Under the pieces are notes generated by a model that worked only from the letters and a program-made list of their open reading frames with translations, searched no databases and was not told where the DNA came from. This document shows, piece by piece, positions 33,319 through 59,936 of a stretch of 64,000 nt of DNA. The stretch comes from Cypionkella sp. (GTDB lineage Bacteria; Pseudomonadota; Alphaproteobacteria; Rhodobacterales; Rhodobacteraceae). Where the stretch lies: NCBI RefSeq assembly GCF_030652235.1, contig NZ_JAUSBA010000045.1, positions 1-64,000 of the forward strand, in the 5' to 3' direction. How positions within the stretch are numbered: position 1 is the first letter of the stretch; every line of letters begins with the position of its first letter. Both the position numbers and the translations under genes were made by a program.

Positions 33319-33352
33319 AACGGCCCGCAGGGGGAGGATCCTGCGGGCCGTT
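33319..33352. terminator. Bidirectional terminator between aminotransferase and amtB
   Basis: A 12-bp perfect stem AACGGCCCGCAG / CTGCGGGCCGTT with a 10-nt loop is followed by TCTTCTATC on the plus strand and TTTTCATTT on the minus strand. It lies between the convergent aminotransferase and amtB genes and can serve both. Confidence 0.85.
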
Positions 33353-37572: not shown

Positions 37573-37760
37573 AGCATTGCCGCTTTCTGACACGTGAGCT
37601 GGGCCGCAAAAATCATTCCCCGCGGGGAATGACTTGTGTTTTCGGCGACATTTTACAGTATTTTCCACAACATGTTGTGGTTGTGTGGCTGCGCGTTTTC
37701 CCTCGACTTGGCAGATCAGACTGTGGCCTGCTGAAAGACAGGTTGAAAAATGGCCATGAA

Positions 37761-37805
37761 CCATCCCACGCCGCCCCGGATCAAGTCCGGGGCGGCGTGG
37801 GATGG
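37761..37805. repeat. Perfect 45-nt palindrome (20-bp arms)
   Basis: The arm CCATCCCACGCCGCCCCGGA (37761-37780) and its exact complement (37786-37805) enclose the 5-nt loop TCAAG. The core CCCCGGATCAAGTCCGGGG is a frequent dispersed palindrome in alphaproteobacteria. A shorter relative lies at 25738-25756. It sits between the convergent PBP1A and mlaC genes. Confidence 0.8.
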
Positions 37806-37844
37806 TTGGGCGGGTAAAAGCATCAAACGATGGCAGCGCAATGA

Positions 37845-45674: not shown

Positions 45675-45714
45675 TGTGACTTTGCATTCACGTCAATACG
45701 AATGCAAAGTCACA
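45675..45714. terminator. Perfect 15-bp hairpin between convergent genes
   Basis: TGTGACTTTGCATTC (45675-45689) and its exact complement (45700-45714) enclose a 10-nt loop. It lies 4 bp after the pterin dehydratase stop and just before the end of the convergent peroxiredoxin gene. Unlike other terminators here the stem is AT-rich and no U-run follows, so it could be an operator or stability element. Confidence 0.55.
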
Positions 45715-56539: not shown

Positions 56540-58279
56540 CTAAGGCTCAAAGCCTTCGCGGATCGGAAAATCCACCGTCACATCCACCGCTTCCGGTGTG
56601 TTGGCGACACTCACCGCCCCACCAATCTGCTGGGCAAAACCGCGCACCAACTGGGTACCAATCGCGGTAGGCGTTGGTTGATCCGAGGCAGCCGTGCCCA
56701 AACTCGCCGGACCTTTGATATGCAGCCGCGCCTTTTGCTCACCGTCTAGCAGCCGCAGCGACACCTCAACCTGCCCCACCTGCGTCTCACTCGCGGGCAT
56801 CCCGGCCAGCAATTCGGTCAACAACAGCGCAAGCGGCACAGCCTGATCCGGGATCAGTTGAATCGGCTCAAAATCTGTGGCGATCTGTGGCTTCTTGCTG
56901 CTTTGCTTGCCCATACCGCTGATCTGCCGGATCACCCCGGAAAACAGAGAGTCCATCTGGACGTCTTTCTGCCCGGCGGTCTCATACAGCCCCATATGCA
57001 CCGTCGCCAACGCCATCACCCGGTCATGCAGCCCTTCCAGAATACTGCGCACTGCGTCAGATTTCTCCTGCCGGATGTGAATCCGCATGATCGAAGCGAT
57101 CAGCTGCAAACTGTTGCCGGTGCGGTGATGCACCTCGCGCAGCAGAATTTCCTTTTGCCGCAGCATGTTTTCCAGCTCGGCTTCATCATGCAGGATAGTC
57201 TCGGTCAAAACCGCATAGGACCGCCCAAGTTCGATGATCTCCGCCGGGCTGCCCGACAGATCCAGCGCCACCCGCTTGCGATCCCCGCCCGCAAATGCGG
57301 TCATAGCGCTGCCCAAATGCCGCATGTGGCGCGCCACCAACGTCTCGGCACCCAGCAGGGCCACACACATCGCCGCCAGCCACATCAACAGCGGAAACAC
57401 ATAGGGGCTGATGTTATAGCCCAGCACGACCACGCTTTCGGCTTGGCTCCATGACCCCAGCACAAACAACCCTTCGGCCATCTGCACCACCGAGAAAATC
57501 CGCGGCTCGCCGCCCACCGTACGCGCCATGAACGTCTGCGCCCCGCCTTCGGCCAGATCCTTCAGCGTTTTATCAAGCGGCACACTGAAAGGCGCACTCG
57601 TCAGCCCGACAGACGAGGTCAGCACCGTGCCATCACTATCAAAGGTCAGCAGTGCCAACGGGTCACGCGGGCTGGCATCCGCCACCAAAATTCCAACATC
57701 CTCAAGCGCCTTATGCGGCATCGACGCCGAAATAAACCCAATCCGCGCGCCAGTGCCATCATAGACCGGATGCGACACCCCCAGCACCGAAACCCCCGAA
57801 ACCGGCCCCTTCGGGTTGACCGAAAAGCCAGGGTGATCCAGCTTGACCACCTGTTGAAACCGCGGATTGGTGGAGAAATCAAAGTCTTTCATGGTCGAGG
57901 CGCAGGTCATTTTGCCTGACAGCGGCACATAGCCCACCAAGGACAGCGCAGGCTGTTGCGCCGCCACCGCCGCCATCAGACGTCGACAGGCGGCAGTATC
58001 GGCCAGAACCGGCCCCACACTCTGCGCCAAAGTCGCCACCATCACCTGAGTCGATTGGATCAGCCGGATTTCCGGCGCCGCCGCCCGGGTGGTTTCATCC
58101 ATAACCGCCATATTGGCCCGCTGTTCGGATTCGCTGTTGGCGGCCTGCGATTGCACCAGACCCAAAAACCCCAGCGGCAGCATCGCCACCGCCGCCATCA
58201 ACGCCAAGCGCGCGCCAAGCCGTTGATAAAACGGCGGGCGCGCGTCAGAACACCGCGGTAGTGTGGCGGGGTCTGTCAT
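56540..58279 (-). CDS. General stress response sensor histidine kinase (HisKA_2 type)
   Basis: 579-aa membrane kinase. A first membrane helix (LALMAAVAMLPLGFLGLVQS, about 25-45) and a second near residue 280-305 (YVFPLLMWLAAMCVALLGAE) enclose a periplasmic Cache-like sensor domain of about 230 residues. A HAMP-like linker leads to the phosphorylation box LLREVHHRTGNSLQLIASIMRIHIRQ near residue 385. The C-terminal ATPase domain is degenerate in places (LALLLTELLAG replaces the usual N-box Asn), so kinase activity needs checking. Its ATG overlaps the ecfG stop by 4 bp, so it is co-transcribed with nepR-ecfG and likely controls PhyR phosphorylation. Confidence 0.88.
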   Translation of the reverse strand: MTDPATLPRCSDARPPFYQRLGARLALMAAVAMLPLGFLGLVQSQAANSESEQRANMAVMDETTRAAAPEIRLIQSTQVMVATLAQSVGPVLADTAACRRLMAAVAAQQPALSLVGYVPLSGKMTCASTMKDFDFSTNPRFQQVVKLDHPGFSVNPKGPVSGVSVLGVSHPVYDGTGARIGFISASMPHKALEDVGILVADASPRDPLALLTFDSDGTVLTSSVGLTSAPFSVPLDKTLKDLAEGGAQTFMARTVGGEPRIFSVVQMAEGLFVLGSWSQAESVVVLGYNISPYVFPLLMWLAAMCVALLGAETLVARHMRHLGSAMTAFAGGDRKRVALDLSGSPAEIIELGRSYAVLTETILHDEAELENMLRQKEILLREVHHRTGNSLQLIASIMRIHIRQEKSDAVRSILEGLHDRVMALATVHMGLYETAGQKDVQMDSLFSGVIRQISGMGKQSSKKPQIATDFEPIQLIPDQAVPLALLLTELLAGMPASETQVGQVEVSLRLLDGEQKARLHIKGPASLGTAASDQPTPTAIGTQLVRGFAQQIGGAVSVANTPEAVDVTVDFPIREGFEP

Positions 58280-58851
58280 TCCATCGCGGCCGCAGCCCGC
58301 CCGATCACCGCATCGGTCACGGCATCAATCCCCGAGAACATGCCCTCGCCCTCTGCCAGACCCAGCAAATGCGCCAACCGCTTGCGCGCTCGGCTGGCAC
58401 GGCTTTTCACCGTGCCCGCCGCCACACCCATCATCGCGGCGGCTTCGTCTGTGGTAAACCCCGAGGCCCCGACCAGAATCAACACCTCACGGTGTTCATC
58501 CGACAACGCATCAAAAGCGCGCAAGAAATCGGTGAATGCCATGCGCCCGTCGTGGTCAGGCTTGACGCTAAGGGTGGCGGCATGGACACCATCCGGGTCG
58601 GCAACCTCGCGACGGGATTTGCGCAAGGACGAATAATAGGTGTTGCGCAGGATGGTGAACAACCATGCCTGCAAATTGCTGCCGCGCTGGAATTTGTCGA
58701 TACCGGCCCAAGCCTTCAGAATGGTTTCCTGCACCAAATCGTCCGCCGCCGTCACATTGCGCGTCAGGCTGATCGCAAAGGCCCGCAAGGGGCGCAGATG
58801 CTCGACCAACTGGTCGCGTGGGTCAATATCCGCGGCCACAGCGAGGTTCAT
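58276..58851 (-). CDS. ecfG: General stress response ECF sigma factor
   Basis: 191-aa sigma factor of the EcfG (ECF15) group. Region 2 is LRAFAISLTRNVTAADDLVQETILKAWAGIDKF with NLQAWLFTILRNTYYSSLRK. Region 4 is FDALSDEHREVLILVGASGFTTDEAAAMMGVAAGTVKSRASRARKRL. It is held inactive by NepR, encoded directly upstream with a 4-bp overlap, and is released when phosphorylated PhyR takes NepR away. It should read the GGAAC-N16/17-CGTT promoters listed elsewhere in this table. Confidence 0.95.
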   Translation of the reverse strand: MNLAVAADIDPRDQLVEHLRPLRAFAISLTRNVTAADDLVQETILKAWAGIDKFQRGSNLQAWLFTILRNTYYSSLRKSRREVADPDGVHAATLSVKPDHDGRMAFTDFLRAFDALSDEHREVLILVGASGFTTDEAAAMMGVAAGTVKSRASRARKRLAHLLGLAEGEGMFSGIDAVTDAVIGRAAAAME

Positions 58852-59030
58852 CTCTGCACCTCGTCCCGCAGTGCCTCTTTGTCTTTCAACTGCTGCAACA
58901 ACAGCTTAAAGCGGTCCGGCACCTCTTCAACCAGAGCCGACTGGTACACCCGCTTAAGGTTTTCTTCGATTTGAGCCTTGATCTGATCCACTTGACCATC
59001 CTGCTCAGGTTTCGATCCCTGATTTCGCAT
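58848..59030 (-). CDS. nepR: Anti-sigma factor NepR
   Basis: 60-aa protein binding EcfG. The core IEENLKRVYQSALVEEVPDRFKLLLQQL is the diagnostic NepR helix pair. The ATG at 59030 is preceded by AGGAAA; a GTG at 59051 is open but lies in the promoter palindrome. The stop overlaps the ecfG start by 4 bp, giving balanced synthesis of sigma and anti-sigma factor. Confidence 0.93.
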   Translation of the reverse strand: MRNQGSKPEQDGQVDQIKAQIEENLKRVYQSALVEEVPDRFKLLLQQLKDKEALRDEVQR

Positions 59031-59055
59031 TTTTACAATTTCCTGTACCACTCAG

Positions 59056-59080
59056 GGAACCAAACGCGCGGCCATGCGTT
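59056..59080 (+). promoter_or_regulatory. EcfG promoter of phyR
   Basis: GGAAC (59056-59060), 16 bp, CGTT (59077-59080). It lies inside the perfect inverted repeat 59055-59067 / 59076-59088, so the opposite strand carries an identical promoter for nepR. Start site expected near 59087, giving a leader of about 28 nt. Confidence 0.85.
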
Positions 59081-59087
59081 TGGTTCC
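59063..59087 (-). promoter_or_regulatory. EcfG promoter of nepR-ecfG
   Basis: On the minus strand GGAAC (59087-59083), 16 bp, CGTT (59066-59063), the mirror image of the phyR promoter. The start is expected near 59056, about 26 nt before the nepR ATG. This gives EcfG positive autoregulation. Confidence 0.85.
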
Positions 59088-59114
59088 CAAGAAAATACAT
59101 GAGGGAATAAAAAA

Positions 59115-59936
59115 ATGAACACTGACGCCAGCGCAAATCTTTCCGATCTGGTCGCCCTGCATTTGCCAAGCCTGCGCCGCTATGCGCGCGCTTTGACAGG
59201 CAATCAAACCAGCGGCGATCAGTATGCATTGGCCGCTTTGGAGACAGTTTTGGCTGAACCTGCCCTGATTGCAAATGCAAGCGATGCCAAAGTGGCGCTG
59301 TTCAACGTGTTCCACATGGTTTGGGCCAGTTCCGGCGCACCTGTAGCACAAGCCGACAGCCGCCTGTCTGCGGCAGCCCAAGCACATATGGCCGAATTGA
59401 CCCCGAACAGCCGCGAGGCGTTGTTGCTGCATTTCATTGAAGTCTTCAGCTTGGACCAAATCGGCGCGATCATGCAAATCGATGCCGAAGAAGCCCAAGG
59501 CCTGATCACGCGCGCCCTGCATGAGATGACCGGCACCGTCAGCGGCCGCGTTATGGTGATCGAGGATGAAGCCATCATCGCGATGGACATCATCGCCATC
59601 GTCGAGGCGATGGGCCACCAGATCACTGGCGTTGCCCGCACGCGCAAAGAAGCCGTGGCTTTGGCGAAAGCGGATATGCCCGACCTGATCCTCGCCGATA
59701 TCCACTTGGCCGATGCCTCCTCTGGCATCGACGCGGTGAACGAAATCCTTGGCGGGTTTGAGCAGATCCCGGTGATCTTCATCACCGCCTTCCCCGAACG
59801 CCTACTGACCGGGCACCGTCCCGAGCCTGCGTTCTTGATCAACAAACCCTACACCGAAGAACAGGTGCGCTCGGCGGTCAGTCAGGCAATGTTCTTCGCC
59901 TCGACCGAAACTCTGATGACCAAGGAAAACGCCTGA
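59115..59936 (+). CDS. phyR: General stress response anti-anti-sigma response regulator PhyR
   Basis: 273-aa protein. The N-terminal sigma-like domain (about residues 8-138) mimics EcfG (LHLPSLRRYARALTGNQTSGDQYA and FSLDQIGAIMQIDAEEAQGLITRAL). The C-terminal receiver domain has the acidic pair VIEDEAIIAMD near 150, the phosphorylated aspartate D195 in LILADIHLADASSGIDAV, and the conserved threonine and lysine in FITAFPE and INKPY. When phosphorylated it binds NepR and frees EcfG. Divergent from nepR through a shared palindromic promoter. Confidence 0.96.
   Translation: MNTDASANLSDLVALHLPSLRRYARALTGNQTSGDQYALAALETVLAEPALIANASDAKVALFNVFHMVWASSGAPVAQADSRLSAAAQAHMAELTPNSREALLLHFIEVFSLDQIGAIMQIDAEEAQGLITRALHEMTGTVSGRVMVIEDEAIIAMDIIAIVEAMGHQITGVARTRKEAVALAKADMPDLILADIHLADASSGIDAVNEILGGFEQIPVIFITAFPERLLTGHRPEPAFLINKPYTEEQVRSAVSQAMFFASTETLMTKENA

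Follow-up and report, generated by a model that had tools for sequence, protein, structure and literature searches.

The phyR and nepR genes of this Rhodobacteraceae genome face away from a shared palindrome, which raises the question of whether that palindrome is an element in its own right or two promoters facing each other and, in the latter case, what their overlap would mean for the general stress response. The window is the whole stretch of Cypionkella DNA that was analyzed (64 kb). Its phyR gene (59115-59936, plus strand; PF22029, NF006623) encodes an anti-anti-sigma response regulator with sigma-like and receiver domains. On the minus strand are nepR (58848-59030), encoding a 60-amino-acid anti-sigma factor (PF18557, 1.4e-13), and ecfG (58276-58851), which shares 4 bp with the end of nepR and whose product is the general stress response ECF sigma factor. 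These domain matches agree with the gene assignments made in an earlier sequence-only reading of the window. A HisKA_2/HWE-type, PhyK-like sensor kinase gene (56540-58279, minus strand; 151.5 bits, with an NCBIfam cut-off of 750) overlaps ecfG by 4 bp and, judging by this overlap, probably closes the minus-strand operon. A phyR gene divergent from nepR-ecfG, with an HWE/HisKA2 kinase, is the arrangement of the alphaproteobacterial general stress response locus. Excerpts of published accounts (PMC4814048, PMC8103513) describe nepR-ecfG and phyR as typically divergent and both EcfG driven, which resembles the present locus in genes, orientation, promoter consensus, and autoregulatory logic.

The palindrome, GGGAACCAAACGC-GCGGCCAT-GCGTTTGGTTCCC as read directly from the window, occupies 59055-59088 in the 84-bp gap between nepR-ecfG and phyR; its 13-bp arms are 100% complementary and flank an 8-bp spacer. 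It contains an EcfG-type promoter for each direction, both kept in relatives. The promoter toward phyR (59056-59080, plus strand) has its -35 element, GGAAC, at 59056-59060 and its -10 element, CGTT, at 59077-59080, and the promoter toward nepR-ecfG (59063-59087, minus strand) has its -35 at 59083-59087 and its -10 at 59063-59066, with a 16-bp spacer in each case. From left to right, the order is -35 (phyR), -10 (nepR), -10 (phyR), -35 (nepR), all interdigitated within 32 bp. Each -35 sits 2 bp beyond the -10 of the opposing promoter; 59063-59080 is common to both and makes up 18 bp of each 25-bp promoter, and the two -10 elements remain separate, 10 bp apart. Both strands match the EcfG (ECF15) consensus exactly: according to excerpts of the literature, it consists of a GGAAC -35 and a CGTT (or C/GGTT) -10 separated by 16-17 bp (PMC3892343, PMC7083833, PMC4814048). 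The matches also lie close upstream of regulon genes, one before phyR and the other before nepR-ecfG. No sigma-70 promoter was found in a search of the phyR-nepR gap. With transcription starts placed 7 nt past each -10, the predicted phyR start is at about 59087 (in the region 59081-59114, plus strand; about 28 nt to the ATG) and the predicted nepR start at about 59056 (in 59031-59062, minus strand; about 25 nt to the ATG), that is, about 31 bp apart. Putative purine-rich ribosome sites are GAGGGA (59101-59106) for phyR and AGGAAAT (59044-59038) for nepR. The sequence-only reading had claimed the 34-bp palindrome with these arms and spacer, GGAAC-N16-CGTT on both strands, and a -35 just past the -10 of the other promoter, all of which are borne out at the positions above. 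Its interpretation of them as two overlapping mirror-image EcfG-type promoters is supported, with the register kept in relatives.

The palindrome and the mirrored pair in register are not due to chance. Perfect inverted repeats with arms of at least 13 bp and loops of at most 12 bp number 4 in the window, this palindrome among them, versus a mean of 0.07 per 64 kb across 15 dinucleotide shuffles, none of which contained the mirrored composite. A lone GGAAC-N16/17-CGTT match is uninformative, because the genome has 54 of them, fewer than the 104 and 131 matches of the reversed control pattern. Among these 54, the phyR-nepR gap is the sole place where matches on the two strands overlap. The other perfect inverted repeats are at 33319-33352 (13-bp arms; its end is T-rich, and it looks like a terminator), 37759-37807 (22-bp arms), and 45675-45714 (15-bp arms). 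Elsewhere in the same genome, on contig C3 (L002, about position 1501), the ATG of a frame resembling a small membrane protein lies about 36 bp past the end of an EcfG-like GGAAC-N17-CGTT; this frame is a possible regulon member.

Conservation was evaluated in the family by surveying the upstream regions of 156 phyR loci, mostly one per genus. PhyR was detected at E <= 1e-40 in 162 of 345 Rhodobacteraceae genomes drawn evenly from 344 genera, so the system is often absent from the family; 14 of these 162 genomes, with weaker matches, were left out of the survey. In the genus of the window, a full-length PhyR match was present in only 5 of 15 genomes (completeness, 75-100%). A divergent nepR or ecfG match was present at 152 of the 156 loci. 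Counted over both strands, 18 of the 18 consensus letters were matched at 74 loci, 17 at 45, and 16 at 23. Among these 142 loci, the offset between the mirrored promoters was 6 in 25, 7 in 103, 8 in 10, and 2 in 4. A mirrored EcfG pair with an offset of 6-8 and at least 16 letters was therefore present at 138 of the 156 loci, and shuffled controls, which keep only single-base composition, reach 16 letters in 0.8%. Five of the 18 loci failing this loose rule have the right offset but 15 letters. Pairs with an offset of 2 (4 loci in the family and 16 in the class with at least 16 letters) were excluded from the nested count, as they mostly reflect the AAC contained in GGAAC. At the 138 nested loci, which were selected at 16 letters or more, the -35 GGAAC is kept in 137 for each direction and the -10 CGTT in 104 (phyR) and 92 (nepR). 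The spacer of each promoter may be 16 or 17 bp long without a change in the register. Twelve further family loci, some from genera already sampled, were fetched later, and 11 of them are nested, so the promoters recur at orthologous places. The sequence-only reading had proposed an alignment of related phyR-nepR gaps as one test that could overturn it; the overlapping register turned out to be conserved.

A stricter rule, requiring GGAAC-N17/18-GTT on both strands and recording d, the distance between the two -35 starts, was also applied. Interdigitated pairs with d of 26-29 were found at 123 of the 156 loci (7 at 26, 78 at 27, 37 at 28, and 1 at 29); the rest comprised 3 with d = 22, 1 separate pair, 11 with only a phyR-ward match, 14 with only a nepR-ward match, and 4 with neither. 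At the separate locus, L061, the second match lies 187 bp off, toward nepR, whereas the best-scoring pair has offset 6. One-sided relatives are what would be expected if only one direction were a real promoter and the opposite match were accidental, a reading to which we give very little credence because conservation in the family is about the same for the two directions and losses hit either side.

Named family loci, a set that partly repeats genomes of the 156 and is not independent of it, gave 60 of 80 nested (50 of 65 distinct loci after removal of 15 exact duplicates), with 20 of the 80 failing the strict rule. Nested examples include Thioclava, Rhodobacter maris, Pseudooceanicola nanhaiensis, Roseovarius tolerans, Sulfitobacter aestuariivivens, and Marivita cryptomonadis. 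Among the 34 named loci listed, 25 are nested, and the nine that are not belong to Xinfangfangia, Rubellimicrobium (two), Rhodovulum, Paracoccus (three), Alloyangia pacifica, and Rhodosalinus halophilus. Family loci on plasmids (eight records fetched) are nested in five cases (Dinoroseobacter shibae, Gemmobacter fulvus, G. aquarius, Roseobacter ponti, and Roseicitreum antarcticum) and not in Ketogulonicigenium vulgare (one -10 letter off), Roseobacter litoralis, and strain S2214. The failing loci, including those of Paracoccus (P. chinensis, P. salipaludis, P. isoporae, L242, and L256), R. litoralis, and strain S2214, indicate that the block can be lost. Five Paracoccus loci (L234, L235, L242, L248, and L256) are without a nested block by the strict rule and mainly retain the nepR-ward match; the sequences suggest a possible lineage loss. 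In Rhodobacteraceae bacterium S2214 (L369), the region reads GGAACAATAC...GTATTGTTCC, with 27 bp between the -35 starts and CGTT gone; by eye, both -10 elements seem to have changed in concert.

Whether selection acts on the palindrome or on the promoters was evaluated from the letters that the consensus leaves free. In the main class, with 16-bp spacers on both sides (82 distinct sites), both free letters were symmetric at 25 sites, versus 27.3 expected without strata and 28.9-29.2 within GC strata. This lack of symmetric co-variation rules out the palindrome as the conserved unit for this class. The most plausible reading of the perfect 13-bp arms in the window is therefore a face-to-face pair of promoters, each close to consensus. 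The sequence-only reading had presented the overlap as palindromic and as potentially conserved in that form: the fixed promoter register was retained in relatives, and the palindrome itself was not, in the main class. It is mostly a by-product of paired promoters in a fixed register. The 44 sites with 17-bp spacers on both sides differ, with 23 symmetric versus 16.8-18.2 expected within GC strata (p, 0.01-0.04); without strata, 11.7 were expected, so the excess shrinks but remains after stratification. Symmetric co-variation in the 28-bp class appeared significant in a first test, made with no GC strata. The weak signal in the 17/17 subset, like the perfect symmetry in the window, would fit a binding site for a dimeric regulator, with the promoter match secondary. 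We regard such a site as highly improbable given the main-class counts and an inner spacer that is almost uninformative across sites, and because it would leave the exact EcfG matches of the two strands to coincidence. Even less probable, to the point of being negligible, is a terminator or other RNA structure. If transcribed, a 66-nt stretch has a strong predicted fold (-27.8 kcal/mol, z of -4.6), but no T-run is present on either flank; the palindrome is not the sole terminator-like site found nearby, and it lies upstream of both predicted starts; and the main-class free letters vary without preserving pairing.

Promoter geometry outside the family was classified by the same rule at 65 phyR loci of the class that belong to other families, leaving out five loci of family f1 (L289, L291, L295, L297, and L319). 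No match was found at 26 loci, a match on one side at 21, and matches on both sides at 18. The two-sided loci comprised 14 separate pairs and 4 pairs with d = 22, one locus (L303) having both kinds; with L303 counted as back to back, 15 of the 18 have back-to-back pairs. L311 and L348 are included in this count although they have no divergent nepR or ecfG match. In 10 of the 15, from seven families, a distance of 11-14 bp separates the -35 starts (13 bp in 7 of them), with 6-9 bp between the -35 elements, and the usual form is AACG-N16-GTTCC-N8-GGAAC-N16-CGTT. The rsiA1/rsiB1 pair of Sinorhizobium meliloti is likewise back to back (-35 starts 10 bp apart, with 5 bp between the -35 elements), and one Shinella and one Sphingomonas locus have a match on one side only. 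Several back-to-back pairs (L317, L320, L308, and others) show a near-constant 8-bp gap between the -35 elements, often with an A/T tract just downstream of each. The overlap is thus a trait of the lineage, since two-sided loci outside the family mostly have the back-to-back form. The back-to-back form may be the ancestral state; a search of the order for a nearer outgroup gave solely Rhodobacteraceae among the genomes listed. A third form occurs in one genus of family f37 (L325, L327, and L328), as GGAACC...GGTTCC with d = 22; tentatively, each hexamer would serve as a -35 in one direction and as a -10 (GGTT) in the other. This even tighter form may have arisen independently. Among the d = 22 pairs, only these three loci resemble a genuine form of this kind. 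Pairs with d = 22 also occur at three Rhodobacteraceae loci (L122, L128, and L170).

The exact geometry belongs to the phyR-nepR gap rather than to EcfG promoters generally. Of the 345 family genomes, 56 carry the strict composite (GGAAC-NN-AACG-N9..12-CGTT-NN-GTTCC), at one place in each, whereas the reversed-pattern control gave 0 in every row. The phyR set contains 57 strict loci, or 54 after subtraction of three same-genus genomes outside the 345-genome sample, and in the remaining two genomes (L187 and L203), the composite also precedes phyR; hence, it always does. Nor does a lack of space force the overlap, because the nested form persists in gaps of 230-248 bp. By estimated gap length, available for 140 of the 156 family loci, nesting is no rarer in long gaps than in short ones: 26 of 33 loci are nested at 30-90 bp, 51 of 64 at 90-110 bp, 24 of 33 at 110-140 bp, and all 10 at 140 bp or more. 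The block lies in a 248-bp gap in R. antarcticum and in a 136-bp gap in D. shibae.

These distributions bear on a simpler account, in which both EcfG promoters are functional and overlap by history: an ancestral indel would have brought them together, and purifying selection on each would have followed, with exclusion conferring no benefit. The narrow range of offsets (6-8) fits one ancestral event, and common descent plus constraint on each promoter could hold the register with no advantage of overlap. Moreover, exclusion matters little at low promoter activity, both in an excerpted study of Escherichia coli (PMC12825309) and in the low-sigma rows of the toy model described below. On the other hand, the overlap is kept at the 138 loci, mostly from separate genera, including some in gaps of 140-248 bp that would allow drift, and no back-to-back divergent nepR/phyR locus occurs among the 156 family loci and the 65 distinct named loci. 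The family pairs off the 26-29 register have d = 22 (L122 and L128) or d = 159-187 with the second match far inside the nepR side (L061, L242, L248, and L256; L232 duplicates L061), and L170, with d values of 22 and -119, has no divergent nepR or ecfG match. We consider purely historical overlap unlikely.

The reading that we favor, and regard as likely, is that two mutually exclusive, autoregulated EcfG promoters form one bidirectional block that sets the ratio of PhyR to NepR-EcfG. Use of both directions here, exclusion of one polymerase by another, and ratio locking as the reason for conservation are what we infer. Under stress, phosphorylated PhyR would free EcfG from NepR, as in the known pathway. 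EcfG-RNA polymerase would then bind the block in either orientation, never in both simultaneously, and feed back on phyR in one direction and on nepR-ecfG in the other. With both directions competing for one site and one pool of holoenzyme, the relative strength of the two promoters would dictate the phyR to nepR-ecfG transcript ratio, which would hold steady at any level of active EcfG. Separate promoters would drift to their own ceilings on saturation. In a toy model that lacks feedback and uses assumed rates, with a single seed for each setting, a set ratio of 2 was held at 1.97-2.0 by the shared site at the highest sigma level, versus 1.11-1.42 for independent sites. A locked ratio of PhyR to sigma/anti-sigma, as the sequence-only reading had proposed, is thus reasonable to expect from the model. 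Its suggestion of stochastic switching gained no support: Fano factors of the shared site were near 1 (0.85-1.04), with weak correlations (0.04 to -0.11), so that in this no-feedback model, exclusion alone yields no switching.

Excerpts of published work bear on this scheme. In Rhizobium etli without EcfG1, fusions revealed severely reduced phyR expression and almost abolished ecfG1 expression (PMC3892343), and rsiA1 and rsiB1 of S. meliloti are rpoE2 dependent, with mapped starts (PMC3616915). Co-regulation probably maintains the stoichiometry needed by the partner switch (PMC4814048). In bidirectional sigma-70 promoters of E. coli, one polymerase is accommodated at once, with interference when activity is high, and at the promoter studied, constrained transcription was less noisy (PMC12825309). 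In Rhodobacter sphaeroides under membrane stress, ecfG mRNA rises and phyR mRNA does not (PMC5830050), which argues against tight coupling in that species. Rather more doubtful than the bidirectional block itself is a further proposal, which we hold only tentatively: Rhodobacteraceae would have turned a back-to-back EcfG pair inside out to produce an exclusive, symmetric ratio clamp. This clamp would keep PhyR : NepR-EcfG constant over the whole stress range even as the three increase together, and would thereby prevent positive feedback from shifting the threshold of the partner switch.

The block has relatives among known systems. Published accounts of the divergent locus have, in the excerpts available, two promoters and no mention of overlap; here, the pair is inside out and interdigitated. 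The back-to-back EcfG pairs of S. meliloti and the seven other families (which may include that of S. meliloti itself) involve the same promoters and genes with near-fixed spacing, but their -35 elements are adjacent and face away and their core promoters do not overlap. The bidirectional promoters of Warman and Grainger (PMC12825309, seen in excerpt) are likewise short, pseudo-symmetric blocks serving either orientation on both strands with overlapping polymerase sites. Binding in one direction blocks the other in those promoters; here, exclusion is expected from the overlap. They share a symmetric sigma-70 -10 and have starts mostly 18 bp apart, with 10 and 23 bp also common, unlike the present block, which has its own -35 and -10 for each direction, an ECF sigma factor, and predicted starts about 31 bp apart. 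Among the matches listed in a search of the open literature, as excerpted, no description of overlap between the two EcfG promoters was found; the subscription literature may differ. The divergent locus and bidirectional promoters are therefore known, and what is apparently new is a bidirectional promoter of the ECF type that is fully interdigitated and is conserved within one family, the geometry being different elsewhere.

Such a promoter would extend bidirectional promoters, described in the excerpted work for a shared sigma-70 -10, to an ECF sigma factor with a full -35/-10 pair on each strand. A partner switch is governed by the relative amounts of antagonist, anti-sigma factor, and sigma factor. 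The contrast between the interdigitated form of Rhodobacteraceae and the back-to-back form of S. meliloti and others makes the idea testable by a swap of the approximately 35-bp block and, if the idea is true, promoter geometry that fixes this ratio would be a simple, portable design rule.
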